From Marinibacterium profundimaris (GTDB lineage: Bacteria; Pseudomonadota; Alphaproteobacteria; Rhodobacterales; Rhodobacteraceae): DNA of 64,000 nucleotides. The position numbers and the translations under genes are program-made. Shown here in pieces: positions 46,541-59,087 of this stretch. Within the stretch, counting starts at the first letter, position 1. The number at the start of each line of letters is the position of its first letter. The stretch covers positions 620,001-684,000 of the forward strand of contig NZ_AQQR01000002.1 in assembly GCF_002210095.1 (NCBI RefSeq). The letters are read 5' to 3'. The notes beneath the pieces are model-generated. The model was not told the origin of the DNA. It worked only from the letters and a program-made list of their open reading frames with translations, and searched no databases.

Positions 46541-47866
46541 ATGACGACCAGCGACCCCCACGCCAAGACGCGGCGACTTCTGACCGAGGCGGAGATCGCC
46601 TCGGAACAGCTGGTGTCGGTCCTGCGGATGCTGGTGGCCTCGGGCCTGCTGCTGTTTTTCGCCGTGACGGTCGGGCCGCTGTCGGGCTTTGCCGACTCGA
46701 TGCAGAAGCGGCAATGGCTCTTTGCCGCGGTGACAATGGGGGCTTATTGCCTTGTCGGCCTCGGCGCCTGGACGCTGGGCCGGGCGGGGCTGATGCGGCG
46801 CTGGATGATCTGGGTCACGGTGACGACGGATTGCGTCTTCCTGCTGGTCAACATCTGGCTGAGCCTGTCGAATACCGGGCTGTCGGGGCAGGTGGTCTTT
46901 GCTTTGCCGCCGGTCTGGCTGATCCCGATGGCGCTGGCCTTCGGGATGCTGCGGGTGAACCCGGCGGTGCAGATCTATATCACCGTGGTGCTGGTGCTGG
47001 GGATCGGCGCGATGCTCGACATCGGGGCCGGGACCGAAAGCGGGTTCGGGCCGGCGCTGGGCGGCAGGGCCGACCAGGTCGGGTTCTTCCTGGCCACGCC
47101 GCCCAACCTGATGCGGCTGAGCATGATCGCGCTGACGGGCGCGGTGCTGGCGGTGGCGGCGGCGCGGACGCGGCGCCTGCTGCTGCAATCCATCGTCGAG
47201 ACGCAGGCGCGGGCAAACCTGACGCGCTACCTGCCGGCGCAGATTTCCGACCAGCTGGCCGAGGGCCGGCTGGACGAGCTGCGGCGGGGGCGGCGCGAGG
47301 AGATGGCGATCCTGTTCGTGGACATGCGGGATTTCACGACGATCTCGGAGGGGATGACGCCCGAGGAGGTGTCGGGCTTCGTGTCGGAGTTCCGCGCGCG
47401 GCTGACCCGGGCGGTGCAGGGCTGCGGCGGAATGATCGACAAGTTCATGGGCGACGCGGCGATGATCGTCTTTCCGGCCGGCGGGGATCCGGCGGCGGCG
47501 GCCTGCTGCGCGCTGCGCTGCGCCGACCGGATCCGGGCCGCGATGGAGGCGTGGTCCGAGGAGCGGCCCGAGCGGATCCGGGTGGGGATCGGCGGGCATT
47601 GGGGCGAGGTGTTCAGCGGCGTGGTGGGCGATGACACGCGGCTGGAATATTCGGTCTTCGGCGATCCGGTGAATGTGGCGGCGCGGCTGGAGGGGATGAC
47701 CAAGGAGCTGGGCGCGCCGATCGTGGTGTCGCGCGACCTGCTGGAGCGGGCAGGGCAGGGGGCACCGGGGGAGTGGCGGCTGCTGGGGCGGACCGGGATC
47801 CGGGGGCGCGACGAGGGGCTGGATGTGCTGGCCTGTGCGCCGGAGGGGGAGGGACGCGCGGGCTGA
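46541..47866 (+). CDS. Membrane-bound class III adenylate/guanylate cyclase
   Basis: This 441-residue protein has about six transmembrane segments (about 30-205) and a C-terminal class III cyclase domain (about 250-415). Metal-binding aspartates are in ILFVDMRDFTTISEG and FMGDAAMIVF, and the substrate Lys is in MIDKFMGDA. FGDPVNVAARLEG supplies the transition-state Asn and Arg, so the domain looks active. It would make cAMP, possibly feeding the cNMP-binding DUF294 protein at 2.0-3.8 kb, though that link is speculation. GGGA precedes the ATG at 46541; an in-frame ATG at 46517 is possible. Confidence 0.9.
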   Translation: MTTSDPHAKTRRLLTEAEIASEQLVSVLRMLVASGLLLFFAVTVGPLSGFADSMQKRQWLFAAVTMGAYCLVGLGAWTLGRAGLMRRWMIWVTVTTDCVFLLVNIWLSLSNTGLSGQVVFALPPVWLIPMALAFGMLRVNPAVQIYITVVLVLGIGAMLDIGAGTESGFGPALGGRADQVGFFLATPPNLMRLSMIALTGAVLAVAAARTRRLLLQSIVETQARANLTRYLPAQISDQLAEGRLDELRRGRREEMAILFVDMRDFTTISEGMTPEEVSGFVSEFRARLTRAVQGCGGMIDKFMGDAAMIVFPAGGDPAAAACCALRCADRIRAAMEAWSEERPERIRVGIGGHWGEVFSGVVGDDTRLEYSVFGDPVNVAARLEGMTKELGAPIVVSRDLLERAGQGAPGEWRLLGRTGIRGRDEGLDVLACAPEGEGRAG

Positions 47867-47897
47867 GGACGGGGTTGGGGGCGCTGCCCCCGTCCTC
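47865..47897 (+). terminator. Hairpin overlapping the cyclase stop codon
   Basis: GAGGACGGGG and CCCCGTCCTC can pair over 10 bp, with an alternative inner GGGGGC/GCCCCC stem, directly at the end of the cyclase gene. CTTT follows, so termination is plausible but weak. The unit continues into dispersed repeat copy e. Confidence 0.5.
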
Positions 47898-47910
47898 CTT
47901 TGGAGGACTC

Positions 47911-47950
47911 CCCCGGAGGTATTTGGGCCAAGGTGAAGCAGGGGCGTGGA
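47911..47950 (+). repeat. Dispersed intergenic repeat, copy e
   Basis: CCGGAGGTATTTGGGCCAAG then GTGAAGCAGGGGCG lies just after the cyclase hairpin. It is the copy with the fullest flank. Confidence 0.85.
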
Positions 47951-47951
47951 G

Positions 47952-48017
47952 CGATGTCCCACGCGTGGGACATCGGGGCGGTCGTTTGGACTCAAGGGGG
48001 TGCGGGGGCGGATTAAC
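47952..48017 (+). repeat. Palindrome-plus-GATTAAC module, copy 1
   Basis: A perfect 24-bp palindrome (47952-47975; core GTCCCACGCGTGGGAC) is followed 38 nt after its shared 18-bp core by GATTAAC at 48011-48017, preceded by TGCGGGGGCG. The same core, spacing and end block recur at 58495-58557. This copy lies between convergent genes. Confidence 0.9.
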
Positions 48018-48053
48018 CGTTTGTTCAGGGTTGGGGCCGCGCCCGGACCCGGG

Positions 48054-48725
48054 TCAGATCCGCAGGAAGGGCTGCGCCAGGCGCGGCAGCAGCGAGGTGA
48101 AGCGCAGCGAGGCGTCGGTCACGGCGAGGCAGATGCAATCCTCGGAGATGTCGGCGACGGGGGTGTGCTGCATCTCTTCGTCGGCGATTTCCACGTCGCC
48201 GCGTGCGAAGTGATCGTCCTCGTCCGAGAAGGCGCCCTGCAGCACCATGGTCATTTCCGTGCCGTGGTGGCCGTGGTCCGGCATCGCGGTGCCTGCGGGG
48301 ATGAAGAGAAGCCGGGCGGTGGCGCCGGGGCCGGTCTTCAGGATCGCCTGTTTCACGCCCATGCCGACCGGGCGCCAGCGGATCGCCTCGAGATCGCCGC
48401 CGACGTAATCGCGCAGGGGCGCGGGCAGGACCGAACCGCGGGGCGCCGGTGCGGGGCGCATCGCGGCCGTCTCGCCGGCGTCGCTGGCGGCGATGCGCGC
48501 CAGGGTCGCGGCAAGGCTGTCCTCGGCCACGGGCGCCTGGGCGTCGGCATCGATCCCGTCCAGCAGGGCGCCGCCGAGCGCATCGTAGCTTTCCAGCCGG
48601 GCGCGGCATTCGTCGCAGAGCGACACATGGGTCGCGACCATCAGGCTGAACGCCTCGTTGAGGCTGCCAGCGGCATAGGCCATCAGGATCGCGTCCGTCA
48701 GATGATGTCTGATCTCGTTGGTCAT
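48054..48725 (-). CDS. chrR: Anti-sigma factor ChrR
   Basis: This 223-residue protein is the zinc anti-sigma factor that holds sigma-E until singlet oxygen appears. The N-terminal ZAS zinc site has His33, Cys37 and Cys40 in THVSLCDEC with a His at 7-8. The C-terminal cupin has His151, His153, Glu157 and His187, spaced exactly as His141, His143, Glu147 and His177 of R. sphaeroides ChrR. Its ATG overlaps the rpoE stop codon as ATGA, keeping sigma and anti-sigma in balance. Confidence 0.95.
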   Translation of the reverse strand: MTNEIRHHLTDAILMAYAAGSLNEAFSLMVATHVSLCDECRARLESYDALGGALLDGIDADAQAPVAEDSLAATLARIAASDAGETAAMRPAPAPRGSVLPAPLRDYVGGDLEAIRWRPVGMGVKQAILKTGPGATARLLFIPAGTAMPDHGHHGTEMTMVLQGAFSDEDDHFARGDVEIADEEMQHTPVADISEDCICLAVTDASLRFTSLLPRLAQPFLRI

Positions 48726-49279
48726 TGGCTACCGTTCATTGCGTGGCGCAGTCTCTCCAGCGCCAGTCTTATCCTCGATTTGATCGTGCCCAGGGGCAGA
48801 CCGGTTGCATCCGCGATCTCGCGGTGGCTCATCTCGCCGAAATAGGCGCGTTCGACCAGGTCGCGCTGGGCCTCCGGCAGGTCGGCCAGGGCCTGGCGCA
48901 GCAGGTCGCTTTCCTGTTGCAGGACGATGACGTCCTCCTGGTCCGGCTCGGCCTCGGGGCCCCAGGGCAGATCCTCGGGCTCGGGCCGGCGTTGCCGGCG
49001 CAGCGTGTCGATCCGGCGATTTCGCGCCACCGTGAAGATCCAGGTCGCCACCGAAGCGCGGGACGGATCGAACAGGTGCGCCTTCTGCCAGATCGTGGCC
49101 ATCACCTCCTGCATGCATTCCTCGGCCTGGGCGCTGTCGGCGCCCGATTTCATCAAGAAGCCTTTAACCCGCGGTGCGAAATACGCGAAGAGTTCCGCGA
49201 AGGCCTGCTGGTCCTTGTCCTCGCGGATCCGGTCGATATGGCCGATCCAGAGGGCTCGGGCGGGAGACGGTTCGGTCAT
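48722..49279 (-). CDS. rpoE: ECF RNA polymerase sigma factor RpoE (singlet-oxygen stress)
   Basis: This 185-residue ECF sigma factor has region 2 at about 25-100 (FAELFAYFAPRVKGFLMKSGADSAQAEECMQEVMATIWQKAHLFD, ATWIFTVARNRRID). Region 4 lies at about 125-180 (EAQRDLVERAYFGEMSHREIADATGLPLGTIKSRIRLALERL). Pairing with ChrR makes it the sigma-E of the R. sphaeroides group. A promoter matching its own consensus lies about 100 nt upstream, indicating autoregulation. The ATG at 49279 has no strong ribosome site, but upstream starts would add sequence outside the family. Confidence 0.95.
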   Translation of the reverse strand: MTEPSPARALWIGHIDRIREDKDQQAFAELFAYFAPRVKGFLMKSGADSAQAEECMQEVMATIWQKAHLFDPSRASVATWIFTVARNRRIDTLRRQRRPEPEDLPWGPEAEPDQEDVIVLQQESDLLRQALADLPEAQRDLVERAYFGEMSHREIADATGLPLGTIKSRIRLALERLRHAMNGSQ

Positions 49280-49377
49280 GTCCGGGTCAGGTTCCGTTTG
49301 GCGAAATCCGTTGTGCGCGATCACCCCAAGGCTTACGCGGTCACGGCCGGAAGGTTCAACCTGCATCTCCATGTCCC

Positions 49378-49407
49378 TGTTTACGCGGCCTGGACGGGGC
49401 CGGATCA
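49378..49407 (-). promoter_or_regulatory. Sigma-E type promoter of rpoE-chrR
   Basis: On the minus strand TGATCC (49407-49402) and TAAACA (49383-49378) are spaced by exactly 18 bp. This matches the R. sphaeroides sigma-E consensus as I recall it (TGATCC, 18 bp, TAA-type -10). Confidence 0.8.
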
Positions 49408-49565
49408 CCGGGGCGCCAAAAAAGTTTTCGCGCGAAATCGTTTTGGTCCGGCGGCCGGGCGTGGCAGGAAGGGGCGCGCGGAGCCCCCGCGCAAGGGCAG
49501 GAGGGCGGCGATGGGCGCCGCAGGCCGCCTTTCCCCCGATGTTTTTCGCTTTTTTTCAAGACATG

Positions 49566-49595
49566 TCATCCGAACGGGCCGCCCAAGCGTAAACC
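49566..49595 (+). promoter_or_regulatory. Sigma-E type promoter of the FAD oxidase operon
   Basis: TCATCC (49566-49571) and TAAACC (49590-49595) are spaced by exactly 18 bp, 26 nt ahead of the operon's first ATG. It differs from the rpoE promoter by one base in each box. Confidence 0.75.
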
Positions 49596-49621
49596 CTTGG
49601 ACGACAATACCGGAGACCTGG

Positions 49622-50920
49622 ATGCCATTCGAACAACGCAATGCCTTGCCGCGCAGGATCGCGGTCATCGGGGCGGGAATATCGGGGCTCTCGGCAGCCC
49701 ACATGCTGGCCGAGAACCACCTCGTGACGCTTTTCGAGGCAGAGCCGCGGTTGGGCGGACATGCGCGCACCGTGATGGCCGGGCGTCGTGGCGATCAGCC
49801 GGTGGACATGGGGTTCATCGTGTTCAACAAGGTCAATTACCCCCGGCTGACCCGGCTTTTCGATCACCTTGGCGTGCCGGTGGCCAAGAGCCAGATGAGC
49901 TTTGGCGTCTCGATCGACGGCGGTGCGCTGGAATATGCGCTGACCAGCGCGGACAGCCTGTTCGCGCAGCGCCGTCACGCGGTGCGCCCGGCCTTCCTGC
50001 GGATGGTGCGCGATATCTTCCGGTTCAACGCGCAGGCCGAGGCGGCGGTGACGGGCCCCGAGATGACGGTGGGCGAGCTGCTGGATGCTCTGGGCATGGG
50101 GGCGTGGTTCCGGGATTATTACCTGCTGCCCTTCTCGGGCGCGATCTGGTCCACGCCAAAGCGCAGGATCCTCGAATTTCCGGCCTATGCGATGATCCGG
50201 TTCTTCAGGAACCACAACCTGCTCAGCTACAGCGGGCAGCACCAGTGGTACACCGTGCAGGGCGGATCGGTGCAATATGTCCAGCGCCTTGAGGCGGCAC
50301 TGCGGCGGCGCGGGGTGGAGATCCGCGAGGGCTGCCCGATCCGGGCGGTGCATCGCGACGGCCCGGGCGTGCGCATCGCGCCCCAGGGCGGGGTGGACGA
50401 GCATTTCGACGAGGTCGTCTTTGCCACCCATTCCGATGTCACGCTGCGCCTGCTGGCCGATGCCGATGCGCGCGAACGCGGCGCGCTGGAGCGTATCCGG
50501 TATCAGCCGAACCAGGTCGTGCTGCATTCGGATGCCGCCATGATGCCGAAGCGGCGCAAGGTCTGGTCCAGCTGGGTCTATACCGAGGACCGCAACGCGC
50601 CCTCGGACGTGATCGATCTGACCTATTGGATGAATTCGCTGCAGCCGATCCCGATGGACGATCCGCTGTTCGTCACGCTGAATTCGCGCCGTCCGATCCG
50701 CGAAGAGCTGATCCACGACCAGGTGACCATGCATCACCCGGTCTACGACGCCGCCGCCCTGGCCGCGCAGGAGGAGATCCGGGGTTTCAACGGCGCCAAC
50801 GCCACCTGGTTCTGCGGGGCCTGGATGCGCAACGGGTTCCACGAGGACGGGATCGCCAGCGCGGCCGACGTGGTCGAGGCCATCGCCGCGCGGCCCGGTC
50901 TTGGGATTGCCGCGGAATGA
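49622..50920 (+). CDS. FAD-dependent amine oxidase/desaturase-like protein of the sigma-E regulon
   Basis: This 432-residue flavoprotein has the dinucleotide fold at RRIAVIGAGISGLSAAHMLAENHLVTLFEAEPRLGGHA (GxGxxG at 17-22) and a C-terminal flavin segment (AAQEEIRGFNGANATWFCGAWMRNGFHEDGIASA). It corresponds in position to RSP1091 of R. sphaeroides, first gene of a sigma-E operon. The furan fatty acid desaturase UfaD has been linked to that regulon, from memory. Desaturation of a methylated membrane acyl chain is a plausible activity. GGAGA precedes the ATG at 49622. Confidence 0.88.
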   Translation: MPFEQRNALPRRIAVIGAGISGLSAAHMLAENHLVTLFEAEPRLGGHARTVMAGRRGDQPVDMGFIVFNKVNYPRLTRLFDHLGVPVAKSQMSFGVSIDGGALEYALTSADSLFAQRRHAVRPAFLRMVRDIFRFNAQAEAAVTGPEMTVGELLDALGMGAWFRDYYLLPFSGAIWSTPKRRILEFPAYAMIRFFRNHNLLSYSGQHQWYTVQGGSVQYVQRLEAALRRRGVEIREGCPIRAVHRDGPGVRIAPQGGVDEHFDEVVFATHSDVTLRLLADADARERGALERIRYQPNQVVLHSDAAMMPKRRKVWSSWVYTEDRNAPSDVIDLTYWMNSLQPIPMDDPLFVTLNSRRPIREELIHDQVTMHHPVYDAAALAAQEEIRGFNGANATWFCGAWMRNGFHEDGIASAADVVEAIAARPGLGIAAE

Positions 50921-51675
50921 GGACGGTCGATCATATCGCCGGACAGACCTTTCATGGCCGCAAGGGATCGGTGAAGAACGCCTTCCGCTACGGGGTGGAT
51001 TACCTGCTGCTGGATGCCGAGGCCGAGGTGGCCGCGCCGCGCGGCTTTTCGCGCAACCGGGGCTGGGTCCTGGCCGTGCACGACAGCGACCATGGCGGGG
51101 CGCCGGGCGAGGGGCGCGGGGCCGCCTGGGTGCGCGAGGTGATGGAAAGCCACCAGCTGCCGCAGCCGGCCCGGATCGAGCTGCTGACCCAGCCGCGCGT
51201 GCTGGGCCACGTGTTCAACCCGGTCAGCTTCTGGCTGTGCCGGGATGGGGACGACGCGCTGGTGGCGGTGATCGCCGAGGTCACGAACACCTTCGGCGAG
51301 AGGCATTCCTATCTTTGTCACAAGCCGGATCTGTTGCCGATCGGCCCGTCGGACCGGCTGCGGGCGACGAAGATCTTCTATGTCAGCCCGTTCCAGCCGA
51401 TCGAGGGCGGGTATGAATTCCGGTTCGACATCCGGCCCGAGCGGATCGGCATCTGGATCGACTACAGCCAGGGCGAAGGCGGGCTGATCGCCACGCTGAC
51501 CGGGCATCGCCGGGCGCTGACCCATGGCGCGATCCTGCGCATGGCGCTGCGGCGGCCCTTCGGGTCGCGGCGGGTGCTGGGGCTGATCTTCTGGCAGGCG
51601 CTGAAGCTGCGGCTGAAATCGGTGCGCTACCGGGTGCGCCCGGCCCCGCCCGAGGCCGAGGTGACGCGCGGATGA
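50917..51675 (+). CDS. DUF1365 domain-containing protein
   Basis: This 252-residue protein matches DUF1365 (COG3496): HGRKGSVKNAFRYGVDYLLLD near the start, PARIELLTQPRVLGHVFNPVSFWLC, VTNTFGERHSYLC, and FYVSPFQPIEGGYEFRFDI. The family is found with cyclopropane-fatty-acid synthases and the preceding FAD protein, so a lipid-modifying role is inferred. The ATGA overlap with the FAD gene and again with the MFS gene shows tight co-translation. It corresponds to RSP1090 by order. Confidence 0.92.
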   Translation: MRTVDHIAGQTFHGRKGSVKNAFRYGVDYLLLDAEAEVAAPRGFSRNRGWVLAVHDSDHGGAPGEGRGAAWVREVMESHQLPQPARIELLTQPRVLGHVFNPVSFWLCRDGDDALVAVIAEVTNTFGERHSYLCHKPDLLPIGPSDRLRATKIFYVSPFQPIEGGYEFRFDIRPERIGIWIDYSQGEGGLIATLTGHRRALTHGAILRMALRRPFGSRRVLGLIFWQALKLRLKSVRYRVRPAPPEAEVTRG

Positions 51676-52925
51676 TTGCCATGGCGCGCAGGATGACGGG
51701 AGAGGGTCTGGCGCCCTACGCGCTCTTTGCGGGCGTTCTGGCCATGGCCGGGCTGCCGCTGTACATCCATGCGCCCAAGGTCTTTGCCGAGGCCAACGGG
51801 GTCAGCCTGGCCGCGATGGGCGGGGTGCTGTTCGCGCTGCGGCTGCTGGACGTGGTGCAGGATCCGCTGCTGGGGCGGCTGGCCGAGGTGTCGGGCCGCT
51901 GGCGCGCGGTTGCGGTGGGGATCGCCGGGGGGGTGATGGCCTGCGGGATGGCCGGGCTTTTTGCCGTGACGCCGCCGGTGGCGCCGCTGATCTGGTTCGC
52001 GGCCATGCTGACGCTGGTCTTCAGCAGCTATTCCTTCCTGACCATCTGTTTCTATGCCCGCGGCGTGGCCCGCGCCGAGGATATGGGCGAGGACGGGCAC
52101 CTGCGTCTTGCCCGCTGGCGCGAGACCGGCGCGCTGCTGGGCGTGTGCATCGCCTCGGTCGCGCCGGTGGCTCTGGCCGTGCTGACCGATGCGCCATATG
52201 CGGCCTTTGCCCTGGGCTTTGCGGTGATGGTCCTGCTGGCGGTGATGGCGATGCAGTCGGAATGGACCGGCGCCGCCCCGGCCGAAGGCTCGCAGCTGAA
52301 GCCGGTGCTGCGCGATCCCGTGGCGCGGCGCCTGCTGCTGGTGGGGCTGCTGAACGCAAGCCCGGTGGCGGTGACCGCGACGCTGTTTCTCTATTTCGTC
52401 GAGAGCCGGCTGCAGGCACCTGGGGCCGAGGGGCCGCTGCTGCTGCTGTTCTTCCTGTCCGCCGCCGCCGCCGCGCCGCTTTGGGGGCGGCTGGCCGAGG
52501 CATTCGGGGCGAAACGGGTGCTGTTGGGCGCGATGGCGCTGTCGATTGCCGCCTTCGCGCTGGTGCCGCTTCTGGGCCCGGGGGACGTGGCCGCCTTTGC
52601 CGCGATCTGCCTTGTCTCGGGCGCCGCGCTGGCGGCCGACCTGACCCTGCTGCCCGCTCTCTTCGCCAAGCGCATGGCCCGGGTCTCGCCCTCGGCGGCG
52701 GCGGGCTTCGGCCTGTGGTCCTTTGTTTCGAAATTCGCCCTGTCCCTTGCGGCGCTGGTACTTCTGCCGGCGCTTGAGGTGGCGGGCTTCACCCCGGGCG
52801 GCCCCAACGAAGAGAGCGCGCTGCGAACCCTCGCGCTGCTCTACGCCGGCCTGCCCTGCCTTCTGAAAGCGGCGGCGATCATCCTGCTCGCCGCCGCCCG
52901 ACTGGAGGCCTCACCGGAGGATTGA
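51672..52925 (+). CDS. MFS transporter (MFS_2, melibiose-symporter-like)
   Basis: This 417-residue membrane protein has about 12 helices and the pattern GLPLYIHAPKVFAEANGVSLAAMGGVLFALRLLDVVQDPLLGRLAE of the glycoside-pentoside-hexuronide type. In this operon it is more likely to move a lipid or metabolite tied to the oxidative response than a sugar. It overlaps the DUF1365 gene by ATGA. It corresponds to RSP1089 by order. The substrate is unknown. Confidence 0.88.
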   Translation: MIAMARRMTGEGLAPYALFAGVLAMAGLPLYIHAPKVFAEANGVSLAAMGGVLFALRLLDVVQDPLLGRLAEVSGRWRAVAVGIAGGVMACGMAGLFAVTPPVAPLIWFAAMLTLVFSSYSFLTICFYARGVARAEDMGEDGHLRLARWRETGALLGVCIASVAPVALAVLTDAPYAAFALGFAVMVLLAVMAMQSEWTGAAPAEGSQLKPVLRDPVARRLLLVGLLNASPVAVTATLFLYFVESRLQAPGAEGPLLLLFFLSAAAAAPLWGRLAEAFGAKRVLLGAMALSIAAFALVPLLGPGDVAAFAAICLVSGAALAADLTLLPALFAKRMARVSPSAAAGFGLWSFVSKFALSLAALVLLPALEVAGFTPGGPNEESALRTLALLYAGLPCLLKAAAIILLAAARLEASPED

Positions 52926-52927
52926 CC

Positions 52928-53533
52928 ATGCAAGAGATCCTGCTTGTCGCCCTGGGCGCGGCCCTGATGGCGCTGCTGTTCTGGTTCCGTCACCGCTATG
53001 CGTCCTTTGCCGCCCAGGCGCCGGGGGATTATTGCGCCGGCGGGCCGGAGTTCGACCCGCGCCGCCACCTGAACGGCGCGATGACCTGCGATGGCGTCAC
53101 CTACGGGCCCACGGGCCGCGTGGTGTCGCGGTTCACCGCCGATTTCGATATCGCCTGGACCGGCGACACCGGGATCATGCGCGAGCATTTCCGCTATGAC
53201 GACGGCTCCAGCCGGGACCGCGAGTGGCACCTGACCCTGATGCCCGACGGCCGGATCGAGGCCCGCGCGGATGACGTGCCCGGTCTTGGCCGGGGCATGG
53301 TCAGCGGTCCGACGCTGGGCCTGCGCTATCGGCTGCGCCTGCCCGAAAGCTCGGGCGGGCATGTGCTGGACGCGGTCGACTGGATGTACCTGACGCCGGA
53401 TGGAACGATCATGAACCGCAGCCAGTTCCGCAAGTTCGGGATCACCGTGGCCGAACTGGTGGCCACGATGCGTCCGGTGGGCCGGGCCGAGGCCCGGGGA
53501 GCGGATCCGATATTGGAAACGGCGGCGGAATGA
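52928..53533 (+). CDS. DUF3833 domain-containing protein
   Basis: This 201-residue protein has one N-terminal membrane anchor (about 4-22) and a lipocalin-like beta-rich body. The DUF3833 run is HLNGAMTCDGVTYGPTGRVVSRFTADFDIAW, followed by FRYDDGSSRDREWHL, MVSGPTLGLRYRLRLPESSGG and DWMYLTPDGTIMNRSQFRKFGI. It probably binds a lipid at the membrane surface; that is inference from fold and operon. GGAGG precedes the ATG, 2 nt after the MFS stop. It corresponds to RSP1088 by order. Confidence 0.88.
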   Translation: MQEILLVALGAALMALLFWFRHRYASFAAQAPGDYCAGGPEFDPRRHLNGAMTCDGVTYGPTGRVVSRFTADFDIAWTGDTGIMREHFRYDDGSSRDREWHLTLMPDGRIEARADDVPGLGRGMVSGPTLGLRYRLRLPESSGGHVLDAVDWMYLTPDGTIMNRSQFRKFGITVAELVATMRPVGRAEARGADPILETAAE

Positions 53534-53543
53534 GACAGCTTAA

Positions 53544-54281
53544 ATGAGACAGCTCAGAGGCAAGAGATACTGGCTGGTCGGCGCAAGCGAAGGGCTTGGC
53601 GCGGCGCTGGCGCAGCAGATGAGCGCCGAGGGCGCACGGCTGGTGCTGTCGTCGCGCTCGGGCCAGAAGCTGCAGGCGCTGGCCGACAGCCTGCCGACCC
53701 AGGCCGAGGTGGTGCAGATCGACGTCACCGACGATGCCAGCGTCCGCGACGCGGCCCAGTCGGTGGGCGAGATCGACGGGCTGGTCTACCTCGCCGGGGT
53801 CTACTGGCCCATGGCCGCGCAGGACTGGACCGCCGAGGAAGCGACGGCGATGGCCGATGTGAACTTCACCGGGCTGATGCGGGTGCTGGGCCAGGTCGTG
53901 CCGGGGATGGTGTCGCGGGACGCGGGCCACATCGTGATCACCGGCTCGCTTTCGGGCTATCGGGGCTTGCCGGGGACGATCGGCTATGTCGCCTCGAAGG
54001 CCGGGGTGATGGCGCTGGCCGAATGCCTGCATGCGGATCTGCACAAGACCGGGGTCGATGTGCAGCTGGCCAACCCGGGCTTCATCCGCACCCGGCTGAC
54101 GGACAAGAACGATTTCACCATGCCATTGCTGATGGAACCCGACGAGGCCGCCGCCAAGATGCTGGCGCATATGAAGGGGCGGGGGTTCTCGCGCAGCTTC
54201 CCGCGCGCGTTTTCCTGGGTGTTCCGCCTGTCGCGGTTCCTGCCCGAGCCTGTGTACCTGAAGATCTTCGCGCGGGGCTGA
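53544..54281 (+). CDS. Short-chain dehydrogenase/reductase of the sigma-E operon
   Basis: This 245-residue enzyme has the SDR cofactor loop GASEGLG (13-19) and the catalytic triad Ser135, Tyr148 and Lys152 (YVASK). The PGFIRTRLTDKNDF stretch follows. The C-terminal basic hydrophobic helix (FSRSFPRAFSWVFRLSRFLPEPVYLKIF) suggests membrane contact. It corresponds to RSP1087 by order and closes the sigma-E operon. The direct repeat TGAGACAGCT spans the short gap before its ATG. Confidence 0.9.
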   Translation: MRQLRGKRYWLVGASEGLGAALAQQMSAEGARLVLSSRSGQKLQALADSLPTQAEVVQIDVTDDASVRDAAQSVGEIDGLVYLAGVYWPMAAQDWTAEEATAMADVNFTGLMRVLGQVVPGMVSRDAGHIVITGSLSGYRGLPGTIGYVASKAGVMALAECLHADLHKTGVDVQLANPGFIRTRLTDKNDFTMPLLMEPDEAAAKMLAHMKGRGFSRSFPRAFSWVFRLSRFLPEPVYLKIFARG

Positions 54282-54383
54282 GCCTGCCGGAGGGTGCGTT
54301 TCTTCACGACCGCACTTGCGCCATGTCAATGTCGGCCCCCGCGCCTTGATGCCATGTGACCCGGTCTTTACCGGAGAACCAAG

Positions 54384-54701
54384 ATGCAGGAGCTATCCCC
54401 CCGCAAGGTCGCACAGGTCATCGTCATGAGCCGCGAGCTTGGCCGGGCCGAAGGTGAATTTCGCGATTTCGTCGAGGCCATGACCGAGGACGAGCAGGCC
54501 GAGCTGGTCGCCGTCATGTGGATCGGCCGTGGCAGTTTCGAGGTCGAGGATTTCGCAGAGGCGGTCAACACCGCGCGGGCCGAGGCCACGACCCCCTGCG
54601 CCGACTACCTGATCGGCACGCCGCACCTGGCCGAGAACCTGGAAACCGGGCTCGAGGCGATGGGCTATTCCGTCTCCGACGAGGAAGACGGGGTCCTCTA
54701 G
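54384..54701 (+). CDS. DUF3775 domain-containing protein
   Basis: This 105-residue acidic protein matches DUF3775: LSPRKVAQVIVMSRELGR, ELVAVMWIGRGSFEVEDFAEAVNTA and TPCADYLIGTPHLAENLETGLEAMG. No function is known. It lies 102 bp after the SDR gene, so it may have its own promoter or be the distal end of the sigma-E transcript. No sigma-E-type promoter is visible in the gap. Confidence 0.88.
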   Translation: MQELSPRKVAQVIVMSRELGRAEGEFRDFVEAMTEDEQAELVAVMWIGRGSFEVEDFAEAVNTARAEATTPCADYLIGTPHLAENLETGLEAMGYSVSDEEDGVL

Positions 54702-54728
54702 GGCGCTGCGCGCGGGCAGGGGCGGCAA

Positions 54729-54749
54729 CCGGGCACCTCTGGTGCCCGG
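54729..54749. terminator. Strong hairpin between convergent genes
   Basis: CCGGGCACC and GGTGCCCGG form a perfect 9-bp stem with loop TCT between the ends of the DUF3775 gene and the saccharopine reductase-like gene. There is no T-run on either side; a bidirectional stop or RNA stabiliser is likely. Confidence 0.45.
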
Positions 54750-54794
54750 AGCATGGATTGCGCCGTCAGGCGCGACGCCTTGCAATGGCCGGGA

Positions 54795-55937
54795 TCAGGC
54801 GAGCCGGTCGATCAGCGCCAGGTGCTGGGCCAGCGTGTCGATTTCGCCCAGCCAGGTGTCCAGCAGTTTGGGATCCGAAGGCGCCGCATGCACGCCGGCG
54901 GGCACCGCGCGGTCAAGCACCGCCTCGACCGCCAGGGCCACCGGGATCGACACCAGCCGCGCCATCGCCGTGCCGCGTTCGTCGCCCCAGGCGTCCATAA
55001 CGTAGGTCTGGTGGAACACCGCCTTGCCGTCCTTCTCCGCCGTCAGGTCGACACAGAGGACCACGCGGTCGGGCTCGCCCTCGTCATAGGCGTTTTCTTC
55101 CCAGAACTGGTCCGACATCTCCTTCAGGCGGGCGTCGCCCTCGGGGCCCTGCAGCGTCTCGACCTCGGCGAAGACGTCCTTCCAGGCCTCGGTCCAGCCG
55201 TTCAGCCGCAGCGTGCCGCGGACGAAATCCTTCACCGGCCAGGCCGGGTCGAAGTCGTATTGCGCCATGAAGGGGATGGAATCGCGGTTCGGGTAGACCT
55301 CGAACTCTTCGGGCGTGGGCAGCGGGGCGACATAGGTGCCGATCGCGTCCCAGGGTCGGTCCACGCGCAGCTCGGAATAGGCCTTCATCGACCGCGAGGG
55401 CGAGCGCAGGGCCTTCAGCACGCCGAGCGGCGACCAGCTGAACTTGTAGCGGAACGGGTTCGGGTTCTTCGGGATGCCGCCGCAATAGCTAAGGAAGCTC
55501 AGGTGGTTTTCCGGGTCGAAGGCATCCGAGGCGCGGTACTTGGCGACCAGCGCATGGGCCATCAGGTGGTCGATGCCCGGGTCCAGCCCGACCTCGTTCA
55601 TCAGGATCACGCCGGCGGCGCGGGCTTCGTCGTCCAGCGCGCGCATCTCGGGCGCGATGTAGGAGGACGAGACGAAATGGGCCTTCGCCGCGATGGCGGC
55701 CTTCGCCAGCGGCACGTGCCAGTCGCCCGGCAGCATCGAGACTACCACGTCGCCGGGCTGCAGCGCTGCGGCCACGGTGTCCAGATCGAAGGCGCGGATG
55801 TCGTCGGTCAGGTCGCCGACCGCCTCCTGCGCCTTGTCCACCGTCCGGTTCCAGACGGTGACGGGTTTGCCGGCCGCCAGAAGGCGGCGCAGGCCGGGGA
55901 TGGCCGACAGGCCGGTGCCGCACCAGTGAATTGTCAT
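54795..55937 (-). CDS. Saccharopine dehydrogenase family protein (LYS9/LKR-like reductase)
   Basis: This 380-residue protein has an N-terminal Rossmann start (IHWCGTGLSAIPGLRRLLAAGKPVTVWNRT), then VVSMLPGDWHVPLAKAAIAAKAHFVSSSYIAPEM and AGVILMNEVGLDPGIDHLMAHAL. These are typical of the NADP-dependent glutamate-forming saccharopine enzyme. Paired with the next-listed NAD-dependent enzyme, it can convert lysine through saccharopine or act in an equivalent route. Its ATG overlaps the stop of that gene as ATGA. I infer lysine catabolism, known from roseobacters, rather than synthesis, because dapB is present. Confidence 0.88.
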   Translation of the reverse strand: MTIHWCGTGLSAIPGLRRLLAAGKPVTVWNRTVDKAQEAVGDLTDDIRAFDLDTVAAALQPGDVVVSMLPGDWHVPLAKAAIAAKAHFVSSSYIAPEMRALDDEARAAGVILMNEVGLDPGIDHLMAHALVAKYRASDAFDPENHLSFLSYCGGIPKNPNPFRYKFSWSPLGVLKALRSPSRSMKAYSELRVDRPWDAIGTYVAPLPTPEEFEVYPNRDSIPFMAQYDFDPAWPVKDFVRGTLRLNGWTEAWKDVFAEVETLQGPEGDARLKEMSDQFWEENAYDEGEPDRVVLCVDLTAEKDGKAVFHQTYVMDAWGDERGTAMARLVSIPVALAVEAVLDRAVPAGVHAAPSDPKLLDTWLGEIDTLAQHLALIDRLA

Positions 55938-57085
55938 GGAGTGGACCTCTTCGTCGTTTCTGTCCTGGCGTCTTTGCCGGGGACGGTGTCGCGCGCTGCG
56001 CCCGTCCTCGGCGCGGTGAAGTCTTGGTACCTGGCCACGTGGGCGTCGAAGATCTCCTTCGCGCGGCCCCAGACGCCGCTGTCGAGGTCGTCCAGCGTCT
56101 TGAGCGAGGGCAGCAGCTGGCCGGCGAAATCCTCGGAGCTTTCGCGCGGCAGCATCGAGGGCAGGTTGTCGATCGCGGTCACATCCAGCGCCGGGGTGTA
56201 GTGGACGCGCAGCGCCGGCGCGGACCAGGTGGTGGTGCGGTCGTAGACCTTGATCGGGGAGAAATCGCTGTCCGGGTCGCAGGCGATGTCGCCGATCACC
56301 CGGAGCGCGCGCGGGTCGGACCCGGCCGAGGAGGGCACGAAGACGGGGGTGTCGGGCCCGGCGAGGATGCAGTTGAGGAAGATCTCGTGCATCAGAACCT
56401 CGGGGAAGGGGCCGCCGCTGGCGGTCTCTTCCATGTCCCAGGCGGTCACCGGCACGCGCATCGCCTTGCAAAGGTCCGCCGCCCCGCGTCCGACGCGCCC
56501 CAGCGCGCCGATGACCAGGGCATCGGGCCGCTCGGATCCGGTGGCCAGAAGCTGTATGTTCAGGTCGGCGCGCAGGGCCTCGGCATCGGCATAGGGATGG
56601 ACCGGGCCGCAGATGTCGTGGCGCTTCTGCGCCGCCCAGCACATCAGCGCCACCGCCGCGCCCGCATAGCCCGCCCAGTAGCCGAAGGCCGCCACGCGGC
56701 GCCCGTCCTCGTCCAGCAGGTATTCGAGATCGTAGAGCGTTCCGCCGCCCGCGGCGAAGCGTTCCAGCAGCACCTGGCCGGCCGGCTGGCCCTTGTAGGC
56801 GTGGCCGAACATGATGTGGCGGTGCACCAGGGGCGTGCCGTCCTCGGGCAGTTCCTTGAGGCCGAAGATGATCGCGTCCTCCGGCGCCTCGGGCCAGGAC
56901 CCTTCGGGCGCCACGGCACAGCCGGCCTCGACATAGCCGTCAAGCGGGAGGATGCGGCTTTCGCTCTCCTCGATGGTCAGATCGAACCCCTGCCCGATCA
57001 GCGCCTTCGCGCCGTCGGGGGTGATGCCGACGCGGTCCTCGTTGGCACGCTGCTCGGCCCGGATCCAGAGATGCGGCATGCTCAT
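55934..57085 (-). CDS. Saccharopine dehydrogenase, NAD+ L-lysine-forming type (LYS1-like)
   Basis: This 383-residue enzyme belongs to the alanine dehydrogenase/PNT-like fold. The N-terminal LWIRAEQRANEDRVGITPDGAKALIGQGF and IFGLKELPEDGTPLVHRHIMFGHAYKGQ carry the substrate residues. The Rossmann part is DALVIGALGRVGRGAADLCKAMRVPVTAWD, and TTWSAPALRVHYTPALDVTAIDNLPSMLPRESS closes the site. The ATG at 57085 overlaps the GST stop and the 3' end overlaps the next gene, so three proteins are translated together. Confidence 0.9.
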   Translation of the reverse strand: MSMPHLWIRAEQRANEDRVGITPDGAKALIGQGFDLTIEESESRILPLDGYVEAGCAVAPEGSWPEAPEDAIIFGLKELPEDGTPLVHRHIMFGHAYKGQPAGQVLLERFAAGGGTLYDLEYLLDEDGRRVAAFGYWAGYAGAAVALMCWAAQKRHDICGPVHPYADAEALRADLNIQLLATGSERPDALVIGALGRVGRGAADLCKAMRVPVTAWDMEETASGGPFPEVLMHEIFLNCILAGPDTPVFVPSSAGSDPRALRVIGDIACDPDSDFSPIKVYDRTTTWSAPALRVHYTPALDVTAIDNLPSMLPRESSEDFAGQLLPSLKTLDDLDSGVWGRAKEIFDAHVARYQDFTAPRTGAARDTVPGKDARTETTKRSTP

Positions 57086-57705
57086 TGCGGGATCATCCCC
57101 TTGGCGACGACCGCCTGCACCGAGGGCCGCGCGGCCATCGTCTCGCGGAAGGCCTGCAGTTTCGGGAATGCCGTGATGTCGACGCTGTCGCCTTCCAGCC
57201 AGGTGGAGATCGTGTAGAGATAGCAATCCGCCACGCTCGGACGGTCGCCCAGGATGAAGGGGCCCGTCAGCATGTGGTTTTCGACGTAGTCGCAGCAGGC
57301 GGTCATCGTTTCGGGCACCTTGGCGGCCATGGCCGCCTGGGCCGCGGGGTCGTCGGCCCAGCGGGCGCCGCGCCGCCCGTGGGCGTGGTTGGGATGCATG
57401 GTCGAGGCGAAGTAGTACATCGCCGCGCGCATCTGCGCCTGGGCGACCGGATCGGCGGGGGCCAGCCCGGCCTCGGGCGCGCGGGCGGCGATGTATTCGA
57501 GGATCGCGCCGGTCTCGGTAAAGGTGCCGTCGGTCGTGATCAGGACGGGCACCCGGCCCTTGGGGTTCAGCGACAGGTAAGGTTCCTCGCGCTGCTCGCC
57601 GGCGGCGAAATCGACGCGGACGGGCTCATAGGGCAGGCCGGCCTCTTCTAGGGCAATGGCCGAGGCGCTGGCGATGGTGCCGGGGGAAAAGTAAAGCTTG
57701 ATCAT
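57082..57705 (-). CDS. Glutathione S-transferase family protein
   Basis: This 207-residue protein has the thioredoxin-like N-terminal domain (KLYFSPGTIASASAIALEEAGLPYEPVRVDF, LNPKGRVPVLITTDG with cis-Pro, and TETGAILEYIA) and the helical C-terminal domain. Its catalytic Ser/Cys position reads PGTIASA. It probably detoxifies or isomerises a metabolite with glutathione; coupling to two saccharopine enzymes hints at reactive semialdehyde handling. The 3' end overlaps the LYS1-like gene by ATGA. Confidence 0.92.
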   Translation of the reverse strand: MIKLYFSPGTIASASAIALEEAGLPYEPVRVDFAAGEQREEPYLSLNPKGRVPVLITTDGTFTETGAILEYIAARAPEAGLAPADPVAQAQMRAAMYYFASTMHPNHAHGRRGARWADDPAAQAAMAAKVPETMTACCDYVENHMLTGPFILGDRPSVADCYLYTISTWLEGDSVDITAFPKLQAFRETMAARPSVQAVVAKGMIPQ

Positions 57706-57714
57706 CCGTCCTCC

Positions 57715-58365
57715 TTACAGATGGGTCTGGGCATGGTGGCGGTCTGGCGCCTCCAGGTGCGGGACGGCATTGAACAGCACCGGCGTCATCGTTTCACCGA
57801 TCGGGAATATGCGATGCATGGAAGTGTTCATGATCGCAAGCGCCATCCGCGCGGTGGCCGGCATGTCGAGCCCGAGCGTGCCGCGCATCACCATCGAGAT
57901 CAGCCCGCCCGAGGTGACCACCAGCGCGGGACCGGAGCCGCCGCCGATCTCGGCCAGGGCGGTGGTCACGCCGTCGATGTAATCGTCGAAGGAGATCGGG
58001 ACCTCCTCGATCTCGCCCATGGCCCAGGCCATGAAGACCTGCGGCAGGTGCAGGACAAAGCCCTCGCGGTCGGTGGGGATCTGCAGGCCGCGCTGGTCCT
58101 GCAGGAGGGTGGCGAGGGTGAAATAGGGGATCTCGTTCAGGCGGGGGTCGCGGGTGACGTCGTCGAACCCGGCGCTGGCGGCGGTTTCGACATGGCGGAC
58201 GAGGGTGCCGCAATAGACCCGGGGATGATGGGCGGCGGCGTCGCGGAGGTAGTCGCCCAGCCAGCGCGCCTGCTGGTGGCCCAGCGGGCTGAGCTTGTCA
58301 TAGCTTTCCTCGTCGCGGGCGGCGGAATTGGCCTGGCCGTGACGGATGAGGGTGATGTGGGACAT
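57715..58365 (-). CDS. Histidine phosphatase family protein
   Basis: This 216-residue protein has the phosphoglycerate-mutase-like motif ITLIRHGQAN with nucleophile His near residue 9, then CGTLVRHVETAASAG and a second basic His in NTSMHRIF. It hydrolyses a phosphate ester; the family does not give a substrate. GGAAGGACGG precedes the ATG at 58365. It is only 9 nt ahead of the GST gene, so it probably heads that operon. Confidence 0.9.
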   Translation of the reverse strand: MSHITLIRHGQANSAARDEESYDKLSPLGHQQARWLGDYLRDAAAHHPRVYCGTLVRHVETAASAGFDDVTRDPRLNEIPYFTLATLLQDQRGLQIPTDREGFVLHLPQVFMAWAMGEIEEVPISFDDYIDGVTTALAEIGGGSGPALVVTSGGLISMVMRGTLGLDMPATARMALAIMNTSMHRIFPIGETMTPVLFNAVPHLEAPDRHHAQTHL

Positions 58366-58796
58366 GCCTGCCGTCCTTCCCGGTCCGTGTCCGACGGTCT
58401 TAGGGGAGCCAGGACCGCGATGCCAGAGCAACCCGGCGCTGAACGGACATTTTCGGGCGGATCGCGGGGGAACCGCGGGCAAGAGCGGCAGGGGTGTCCC
58501 ACGCGTGGGACATGTGCCGGGGTGAGCAAAAACAAGGGTTTGCAGGGGCGGATTAACGATTGCGAAAGGTTTGGAGGGGCGCAGAGGGCGCGGGGCCTGG
58601 GGGCGTCTGGCGGAGCATGTGGCGGGGGACCTCGCCACCCCTTGCGGGGATGTCTCGGCGCGCGGGAGGGTGGGGGTGATGTGATGCGGCCACGGGGCGC
58701 ACCGGCGCCGGCAGGCGCGTTCGACGCTGTTCCTACGCCGCCGGTTTCGGGGTAAACTGCGGCCCGAGGCAGACGATACCAAAACAGGAGAAACCG
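58366..58796. other. 431-bp intergenic region with the palindrome module
   Basis: Located between the divergent phosphatase and SH3-protein genes, it holds module copy 2 and otherwise no supported gene. Promoters for both flanking genes should lie at its edges. Confidence 0.55.
58495..58557 (+). repeat. Palindrome-plus-GATTAAC module, copy 2
   Basis: The same perfect 18-bp palindrome as copy 1 (58495-58512) is followed, after exactly 38 nt, by GATTAAC at 58551-58557. CAAGGG, TGC and GGGGCG blocks occur at the same offsets as in copy 1. This copy is in a divergent intergenic region. Confidence 0.9.
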
Positions 58797-59087
58797 ATGC
58801 GCAGAGCCATCCTGGTCGCGCTGGCGGCCGCCACGCTGGGCACCGGCCCGGCCGGCGCCGCCTCCATGGGGCAATACGAGGTCTTCGGGGTCGATGACGA
58901 CGACATGCTGAAGATGCGCGAAGGCCCGGGGACGGGCTATGTCGTGATTGTCGGCCTGCCCAACGGCACGGTGCTGCAGGTTCACGATTGCCAGCAGAGC
59001 GGGGCGACAAACTGGTGCCGCGTCTCGCTGGACCGGGCGCGGCGGCTGAAGGGCTATGTGTCGCTTGCCTACCTGCGGAAGATGTGA
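58797..59087 (+). CDS. Small secreted SH3-domain protein
   Basis: This 96-residue protein has a signal peptide (about 1-22, ending AGAAS) and one bacterial SH3 domain: MLKMREGPGTGYVVIVGLPNGTVLQV, NWCRVSLDRARRLKGYVSLAYL. Two cysteines (about 66 and 74) may pair. Such domains bind cell-wall peptides. CAGGAG precedes the ATG. It is a single gene. Confidence 0.88.
   Translation: MRRAILVALAAATLGTGPAGAASMGQYEVFGVDDDDMLKMREGPGTGYVVIVGLPNGTVLQVHDCQQSGATNWCRVSLDRARRLKGYVSLAYLRKM

Follow-up and report, generated by a model that had tools for sequence, protein, structure and literature searches.

Dispersed palindrome modules and an orphan ParB-fold protein in Marinibacterium profundimaris and other Rhodobacteraceae: candidate centromere-like sites

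To our knowledge, Noc is the chief example of a ParB-type protein that has dozens of sites dispersed over the chromosome. The Noc system and its Noc-binding sites (NBS) are described as dozens of dispersed palindromes served by one orphan ParB that lacks the ParA motif (PMC7383237, PMC12704722), and Noc is reported as confined to Firmicutes (PMC7383237). A 2025 survey presents orphan ParBs as widespread; the word Rhodobacter is absent from it (PMC12704722). In the P1 parS site, ParB repeats are described around a site for integration host factor (IHF), whose bending promotes ParB binding, while chromosomal parS consists of the palindrome alone (PMC5016525). Here, we describe a family of composite sites in the alphaproteobacterium Marinibacterium profundimaris (G000; 6.15 Mb, 60 contigs). 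Two of them lie in a stretch of 64,000 nucleotides, referred to as the window (assembly GCF_002210095.1, contig NZ_AQQR01000002.1, positions 620,001 to 684,000; G000:C12:620001-684000). Each module consists, in this order, of a palindrome, 17 bp, an IHF consensus and a TTAA-N7-TTAA repeat (the CtrA consensus). The sites share one geometry, many of their positions are conserved within the genus, their palindromes are specific to each genus, and they are linked to, and co-occur with, a divergent ParB-like gene termed PB2. We consider it fairly probable from these sequences that the modules are about 79 dispersed parS-like (centromere-like) sites of the orphan ParB PB2, serving chromosome organisation or segregation.

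The closest described systems each share some of these traits. Like Noc, PB2 is an orphan ParB-fold protein without ParA motif that is accompanied by many dispersed palindromes, and Noc is its best match among solved structures. In contrast to Noc, PB2 is no near duplicate of the chromosomal ParB and lies with ParBs labelled plasmid-type; its sites reach the terminus, the palindrome is unlike the NBS TATTTCCC-GGGAAATA, and each module adds the IHF and TTAA-N7-TTAA parts. By sequence only, the module shares with P1 parS an IHF site flanked by a ParB-type palindrome on one side and a second repeat on the other. It differs in being dispersed, each genome having 37 to about 130 copies that sit mostly at gene ends, and in having a CtrA-like second part that is retained across genera with different palindromes. 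Chromosomal ParABS, with its parS TGTTTCACGTGAAACA, has the ParB fold and similar half-sites (TGTTTCAC against TGTCCCAC; TTTCAC in G117), but the module palindrome carries extra central bases (GC in the Marinibacterium genus and in G117). Canonical parS is a separate site, with one or two exact copies near canonical parB in the four genomes searched, whereas module sites are genome-wide, and a long distance separates canonical ParB from PB2 in the tree. ParBs of short contigs, presumed plasmid, lie closer to PB2, which recalls RepB of repABC, but the palindrome differs from RepB parS GTTNNCNGCNGNNAAC (consensus as given in PMC9040568). The third part of the module matches the full CtrA site TTAA(N7)TTAA, including TTAACC, but lies mostly at gene 3' ends rather than near -35 regions, about 49 bp from the palindrome centre. 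We rate the system as a relative of the Noc/NBS kind with a P1-like site, and as a member of neither. A text search found the palindrome string or its core in none of the papers covered, and the titles returned by searches on Rhodobacteraceae/Roseobacter, orphan ParB and dispersed sites show no paper on such sites.

Composite modules at gene ends

The sequence TGTCCCACGCGTGGGACA, a perfect 18-bp palindrome centred on ACGCGT, occurs twice in the window. In both copies, GATTAAC begins 38 nt past the palindrome end (48011 and 58551), blocks of CAAGGG, TGC and GGGGCG lie in between, and the orientation is identical. An earlier note on this DNA had described this arrangement, with one copy between convergent and the other between divergent genes; the window sequence bears out the former in full and the gene calls agree with the latter, copy A being the convergent and copy B the divergent case. 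With up to three mismatches allowed, the window contains two palindromes, compared to 0.03 expected from shuffled sequence. Genome-wide, 76 exact copies are present rather than the window pair alone, against none for the reversed-pattern control. At up to three mismatches there are 79, against 7 for the control, so near-miss palindromes are rare. Exact counts in three congeners, beginning with M. profundimaris itself, are 76, 44 and 72. The exact palindrome was absent from 58 other genomes searched, 34 of them from the same family, and from the viral contigs searched. Among the matches listed, it occurs with the module in SP126 (taken as congener G001), Roseicyclus sp. M30B49, Pararhodobacter aggregans and RHODO2. 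SP126 is equated with G001 on the strength of a coinciding contig position (PAQV01000005.1:2680 and G001:C4:2680). In Streptomyces, Kitasatospora, Sphingobium, Pararhodobacter oceanensis and others, a lone exact palindrome stands without the module and was taken as chance. Five module loci searched against Rfam gave no match.

The anatomy of the module was established from 55 of the 76 exact copies, all of which carry it. About 60 bp are conserved on one side only of each palindrome, resulting in a module of about 78 bp, and no sequence conservation was found beyond the module end in the M. profundimaris copies. The palindrome is invariant in all 55, which had been selected by exact match. Neither outcome that the earlier note had named as refuting, two copies only or drifting spacing, is what the genome shows: the gap from palindrome to IHF motif is 17 bp in 54 copies and 16 bp in one (offsets of 8-31 allowed). 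The IHF-like motif reads (A/T)(A/T)TCAA-NNNN-TT(A/G); set against the IHF consensus WATCAANNNNTTR (PMC10380432), its second base is A in 35 copies and T in 19. It is followed by GGCG-N-ATT(A/T)AC, an 11-bp direct repeat TTAA-N7-TTAA, and a GGATTTG-like end. The first half of the repeat has TT in 55/55 and A as its fourth base in 52/55, while the four bases of the second TTAA are kept in 41, 39, 38 and 43 of the copies. TTAA-N7-TTAA and TTAACCAT are both given as CtrA motifs in PMC6180460. The comparison of GTTAA-type ends with CtrA half-sites, made in the earlier note, thus holds as to CtrA likeness and falls short as to half-sites, the family consensus being the full repeat. The IHF site, the roughly 80 copies and the gene-end location had not been picked up there.

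A sequence-only model of the module, R1, was used to score the best 150 of 1766 first-look candidates in the genome and found 78 full modules and one weaker one, a total that agrees with the 79 palindromes at up to three mismatches. Among 185 copies from eight genomes, for which distances of 48-50 bp were tried, the modal distance from palindrome centre to repeat is 49 bp (48.5 for 17-bp palindromes). It is held in 53/55 copies of M. profundimaris, 27/36 of SP126, 18/18 of G073, 17/17 of G265, 9/9 of G174, 8/12 of G201, 11/12 of G036 and 25/26 of G117. The IHF part may face either way, and the distance from palindrome to TTAA repeat is nearly fixed. By eye, loci L098, L110, L125 and L129 of Pararhodobacter aggregans and RHODO2 show an extra half-site (TGTCCC or GTCCCA) beyond the TTAA repeat, which looks as if a protein bound both module ends.

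Gene context was assessed with a simple codon-usage gene caller for the same 55 modules. A gene ends toward the palindrome in 47 of them (27 convergent, 19 co-oriented, one without a right-hand gene in its stretch); six are reversed in tandem pairs, and two, including window copy B, are divergent. The convergent and divergent pair that the earlier note had argued from is real, with the setting of copy B an exception (2/55) rather than typical. The palindrome lies less than 20 bp from the stop codon in 28 of the 47 cases and 26 to 217 bp away in the others. The 36 loci of SP126 show a similar pattern (16 convergent, 13 tandem co-oriented, 6 tandem reversed, 1 divergent). Via a flanking gene of 66-96% identity, 20 of the 55 loci match one of the SP126 loci, 18 in the same arrangement, and copy B is among them (L060 with L122). 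These common flanking genes indicate that module positions are inherited and are not recent insertions. A promoter reading of TTGCAG/TTAAGG was discarded, as convergent genes flank half of the sites and nothing is conserved beyond the module.

The layout along the chromosome was analysed for 73 sites of G002, 53 of 60 matches in G201 and 97 of 134 matches in G036 (223 pooled), with the terminus taken as the point opposite parS. Sites are found genome-wide in all three and are not clustered at oriC; if anything, there is a gap at parS. The pooled sites show no departure from uniformity between origin and terminus (Kolmogorov-Smirnov (KS) p 0.21). The parS gap is large in G201 (P 0.015), G036 (0.054) and G002 (0.129); as the pooled distribution does not differ from uniform, we do not claim origin depletion. 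The 5.56-Mb contig of G002 carries all but 3 of its 76 sites (13.9 expected elsewhere, P 2e-4), so the sites mark the chromosome. A strand or origin-terminus skew, which the earlier note had proposed to look for, is no organising rule in G002 or G201, where orientation is unbiased. G036 alone shows a two-arc split (permutation p 0.001), which was tentatively attributed to gene orientation. Sites co-directional with the replication fork number 64/97 in G036, 46/73 in G002 and 25/53 in G201.

When R1 was run on 248 genomes of the family, with up to 18 matches scored per genome, modules were found in 17: eleven with at least eight matches and six with one. The palindromes of other genera were taken from top-scoring matches only. 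G073 has TGTCCCA-CGG-TGGGACA in 16/18 (centre CGA in 2), G265 has TGTCCCA-CGC-TGGGACA in 16/17 (centre GCG in 1), and G174 has GTCCCA-NNN-TGGGACG, with centre CGA in 5/9. GTCCCA-NNN-TGGGAC with a mixed centre is found in G201 (12/12), and GTCCGAGCTCGGAC in G036 (12/12). The IHF and CtrA parts are kept in these genera, while each has its own palindrome. At six of 68 other-genus loci, the neighbouring gene has an ortholog beside a module in the 91 loci of the Marinibacterium genus; at these six, the same place carries a different palindrome. The palindrome changes as a symmetrical set, as would be expected of a binding site whose protein changes. The odd central triplet has a fixed orientation to the module in G073 and G265 (CGG in 16/18, CGC in 16/17), a bias that a symmetric dimer site standing on its own would not be expected to show. 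The third part hardly varies in G036, reading ACTTGGACTTAA in 11/12 copies (loci L138, L155, L213-L222); the CTTGGAC within it resembles the palindrome half CTCGGAC, and PB2 may touch the third part there.

PB2 and its association with the modules

A ParB_N search of 14 genomes gave 1 to 15 matches each, including the canonical ParB beside canonical parS. PB2 is a divergent member of this set. In M. profundimaris it is encoded at G000:C12:713543-714385, about 29.5 kb beyond the window and 2 kb from a module that follows clpB. The protein has 278-283 amino acids in seven genomes, with 48-68% identity to the M. profundimaris copy, and ParB_N (PF02195) is detected in all seven (33.7 bits for M. 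profundimaris, cut-off 26.3). The M. profundimaris protein falls below the cut-off of the canonical ParB/RepB family TIGR00180 (50.1 against 58.45 bits), and the closest solved chains are those of Noc (E 1.6e-13). The nucleotide-pocket motifs are present as G-x-RR and EN-x-x-[RH] in 16/16 PB2 sequences, altered from the canonical GERR and ENxQR. The ParA-binding motif [LFI]G[KR]G[LFI] occurs in 0/16 PB2 compared to 6/8 canonical ParB rows; in the two canonical rows without it (G000, G002), the called start lies downstream of the start of the open frame. The ParB fold begins within about 12 residues of the N-terminus in 15/16 PB2 rows. Among the PB2 neighbour proteins inspected, no parA and no repA or repC was recognised, no search by family having been made. 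PB2 resides on a chromosome-sized contig in G002, G201 and G036.

In the tree, PB2 of 12 module-bearing genomes forms one supported group (100/94), and the branch between it and canonical ParB measures 3.23 changes per column, so that close kinship with the chromosomal ParB is rejected. The tree contains truncated rows; L223 and L244 sit on very long branches, and the placement of L244 (47 residues) in the PB2 group is an artefact. Between the PB2 group and canonical ParB, the branching of the PB2-like proteins of G117, G156, G127, G006 and G091 and of the ParBs of short contigs is unresolved. The latter, which have frames of about 370 amino acids and are nearer to PB2, are probably plasmid ParBs. 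The distant PB2-like genes of G127 lie at G127:C1:4230561-4231427 and 207977-208819, and those of G127 and G156 are found near pyrF and clpB, as in M. profundimaris. In a class-wide sample, 2/289 genomes match PB2 at E 1e-50, namely M. profundimaris and one other at 181 bits, and no PB2 relative was confirmed in the viral contigs searched. Between the clpB-side module and PB2, M. profundimaris encodes a 530-amino-acid reverse transcriptase-TIR fusion (G000:C12:711669-713261; L253:6670-8262), which is a retron-type defence gene by PADLOC (RT-TIR_XII, 535 bits). The slot is occupied by different open frames in G002, G073 and G174 and may be an insertion hot spot.

Of the 8 module-bearing genomes in the ParB_N search, 7 have PB2 within 4 kb of a module, the miss being G066. 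With G272, G161 (a weak module), G217, G117 and the metagenome-assembled genome (MAG) of RHODO2 added, the tally is 12 of 13. In G217, a geometry scan located a module with a different palindrome near PB2, and in RHODO2 an 8-kb locus chosen for its exact palindrome held PB2 420 bp away. For one given gene, the chance of lying this close to a module is about 9-24% per genome. The PB2 neighbourhood differs elsewhere, with aroC in G036 and G272 and other genes in G117 and RHODO2. Across the 248 family genomes, PB2 was found in 11 at 320 bits or more, a threshold set after seeing the list, and in 17 at 225 bits or more. Of the eleven module-rich genomes (at least 8 matches), ten have PB2 at 320 bits (hypergeometric 6e-16; 1e-12 at 225 bits). 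Without the seven genomes from which queries were taken, 3 of 4 module-rich genomes have it (7e-6; 2e-4 at 225 bits). G161 combines PB2 with a single module match.

G117 offers a case in which the protein led to the DNA. It has PB2 at 303 bits and is without R1 module matches. From the inverted repeats near its PB2, GATTTTCACGCGTGAAAATC was chosen because of its centre, and the core TTTTCACGCGTGAAAA was searched. G117 contains 37 copies of this core, 23 of them exact and 14 at one mismatch; eight other genomes and the reversed control have none. The 37-copy palindrome is a prediction from protein position to DNA that held. Of 26 copies examined, 19 face a gene end (14 convergent, 3 tandem, 2 without a right-hand gene), and for 18 of these the stop codon is no more than 22 bp away. 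The IHF consensus lies in the opposite orientation (15/26 by a loose pattern), and TTNA-N7-TTAA starts 49 bp from the palindrome centre in 21/26 (offsets 20-61, both orientations allowed). The G117 palindrome shares its half-site TTTCAC with parS TGTTTCAC-GTGAAACA and has GC added in the middle, and the M. profundimaris palindrome differs from the G117 type by TT to CC on both sides.

Interpretation and competing explanations

We postulate that PB2 would load at the palindrome as a dimeric, nucleotide-dependent DNA clamp, that IHF would bend the DNA 17 bp away, and that a second protein, most likely the cell-cycle regulator CtrA, would occupy TTAA-N7-TTAA at a near-constant 49 bp from the palindrome centre, all three forming one nucleoprotein complex. 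Through dozens of such complexes, the bulk chromosome might be organised, tethered or segregated in step with the cell cycle, and their siting, mostly just outside gene 3' ends, would keep a bound or sliding clamp clear of promoters. Binding of the palindrome by PB2 is very probable, with our confidence slightly lowered because each genome has several ParB-like genes. IHF likely binds the module. Whether CtrA is the third partner on TTAA-N7-TTAA is evenly balanced, although the retention of this repeat while palindromes differ is as expected for a conserved protein. The earlier note's suggestion of a chromosome-organisation or segregation signal is supported by a palindrome family that lies near, and co-occurs with, a ParB-fold gene; the function itself we infer, and we lean towards it. 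A more far-reaching proposal, possible though tentative, is an independently evolved chromosome-wide system in which a domesticated plasmid-type ParB clamp acts at P1-like centromeres with a CtrA gate, the palindrome set having switched with the protein. If so, CtrA would decide when and where the bulk chromosome, beyond the origin, is tethered, condensed or segregated, and dispersed-site ParB systems would have a separate origin in alphaproteobacteria, with a composite site joining ParB, IHF and probably CtrA. The switching of palindrome and protein between genera would then be a natural record of whole-genome specificity co-evolution. At least seven genera (that of M. profundimaris, G073, G265, G174, G201, G036, G117) differ in palindrome, including half-site spacing, and may serve as natural experiments; protein-site co-evolution could be tested over 37 sites (G117) to about 130 model matches (G036). 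The proposal thereby offers a testable link between bulk chromosome organisation and the cell cycle in Rhodobacteraceae.

Several observations weigh against these sites being the centromere-like sites of PB2. In five genomes checked, the probability that some ParB-like gene falls within 4 kb of a site by chance is 24-89%, so the argument rests on the same ortholog being near each time; several PB2 neighbourhoods also share clpB, and the linkage events are therefore not independent. Co-occurrence has exceptions: G094, a 76% complete MAG, is module-rich without a PB2 match; G093, G112, G192, G233 and G247 have one module match each and no PB2 at 225 bits; G066 has PB2, yet no site was found within 20 kb of it; and no convincing module was found in G127, G156, G006 and G091, which have more distant PB2-like genes. 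In G117, the choice of palindrome from several inverted repeats near PB2 was made by eye, and PB2 itself lies outside the supported PB2 group. PB2 matches known ParBs only over its first approximately 156 residues, and a single-sequence structure model reached a predicted local distance difference test score (pLDDT) of 57.9, with an uninformative fold search. Consensus matches are the basis for the IHF and CtrA parts, both of which are degenerate in the window copies. In the three genomes analysed, the sites are randomly spaced and not depleted at the terminus, which leaves a Noc-type layout unsupported.

The main rival is a transcription role at gene ends, which we regard as unlikely, although by far the strongest of the alternatives. 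PB2 would bind the palindromes as a gene-expression device in the manner of KorB or VirB, either a gene-end clamp or roadblock against read-through or a silencer or insulator, with the hairpin acting partly as an intrinsic terminator. The 47/55 modules facing a gene end, with a stop codon no more than 20 bp off in 28 cases, fit such a role. A T-rich stretch after the palindrome (at least 3 T in 6 nt) is seen in 75% of 12 copies in G201, 56% of 9 in G174, 50% of 12 in G036, 47% of 17 in G265 and 42% of 36 in SP126, and G272 has a clear T-run; it is rare in M. profundimaris (16% of 55), G073 (17% of 18) and G117 (4% of 26). As judged by eye, a terminator-like hairpin already separates gene from palindrome in several copies. 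For the half of the sites with convergent genes on both sides there is no promoter to control, the IHF and TTAA-N7-TTAA parts would be left unexplained, and the M. profundimaris genome has only about 79 sites. It is considerably less probable that another regulator, for example CtrA with a partner, reads the module and that the PB2 linkage is a by-product of shared gene neighbourhood. The TTAA-N7-TTAA repeat kept across genera with different palindromes would suit this, as would the clpB gene adjoining the PB2-side module in several genera, which makes linkage events non-independent, and the several ParB-like genes per genome, some of them near a site by chance. Against it, the linkage holds in the differing neighbourhoods of G036, G272, G117 and RHODO2, PB2 and module co-occur over 248 genomes, and the 37-copy palindrome of G117 was found from the position of PB2.

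Two further explanations seem very improbable. Repetitive extragenic palindromes and repetitive IHF-binding palindromes (REP/RIP elements) are multi-copy, intergenic, gene-end-biased and hairpin-forming and carry an IHF consensus, all of which applies to the module too, so that a repetitive or mobile element resembling REP, bacterial interspersed mosaic elements (BIME) or miniature inverted-repeat transposable elements (MITE), with its hairpin and IHF site present by chance, has to be considered. However, divergence has affected the flanks and all of the module but the palindrome, which is wholly invariant, and only three imperfect copies exist within three mismatches. Positions are common to congeners and, in the 6/68 loci, even to genera with different palindromes, and the near-confinement to the main contig of G002 (3/76 off it against 13.9 expected, P 2e-4) does not suit such an element either. 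Nucleoid occlusion of the Noc/NBS kind, in which PB2-coated DNA would keep the division septum off the chromosome, is suggested by Noc as the closest solved structure and by dispersed palindromes with an orphan ParB without ParA motif. The distribution of the 223 pooled sites from three genomes does not differ from uniform (KS p 0.21) and shows no terminus gap; with sites reaching the terminus, septum control through a site-free terminus is unsupported.

The window copies and their surroundings

The two modules of the window and the genes next to them are listed in Table 1.

Table 1. Module parts and flanking genes in the window (window coordinates)
Feature	Position	Strand	Basis
Module copy A, about 80 bp	47955..48034	+	Model R1 match G000:C12:667955-668033 +, 67.2 bits; alignment row L059
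Palindrome A, TGTCCCACGCGTGGGACA, proposed PB2 (ParB-fold) recognition site	47955..47972	.	Sequence; aligned copies
IHF-like site A, ACTCAAGGGGGTG, weak copy, 2 mismatches to WATCAANNNNTTR	47990..48002	+	Family position
CtrA-like direct repeat A, TTAA-N7-TTCA	48013..48027	+	Sequence; family logo
Module copy B, about 80 bp	58495..58574	+	R1 match G000:C12:678495-678573 +, 65.4 bits; row L060
Palindrome B, second copy	58495..58512	.	Sequence
IHF-like site B, AAACAAGGGTTTG, 1 mismatch to WATCAANNNNTTR	58530..58542	+	Sequence; family position
CtrA-like repeat B, TTAA-N7-GAAA, second half degenerate	58553..58567	+	Sequence; family logo
Adenylate/guanylate cyclase-domain protein, end 88 bp before palindrome A	46541..47866	+	PF00211; gene call
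ChrR cupin-like protein, convergent neighbour of module A	48054..48725	-	PF12973
Histidine phosphatase family protein, start 129 bp before palindrome B	57715..58365	-	PF00300
SH3-domain protein, start downstream of module B	58797..59087	+	PF08239

By eye, a second intergenic repeat (CTTCTTCTTGGCCCAAATACCTCCGGGGGAG and its complement) abuts several modules on the palindrome side. Modules flanked in this way include copy A, with the repeat at window positions 47890-47945, and those at L037, L049, L050 and L051.

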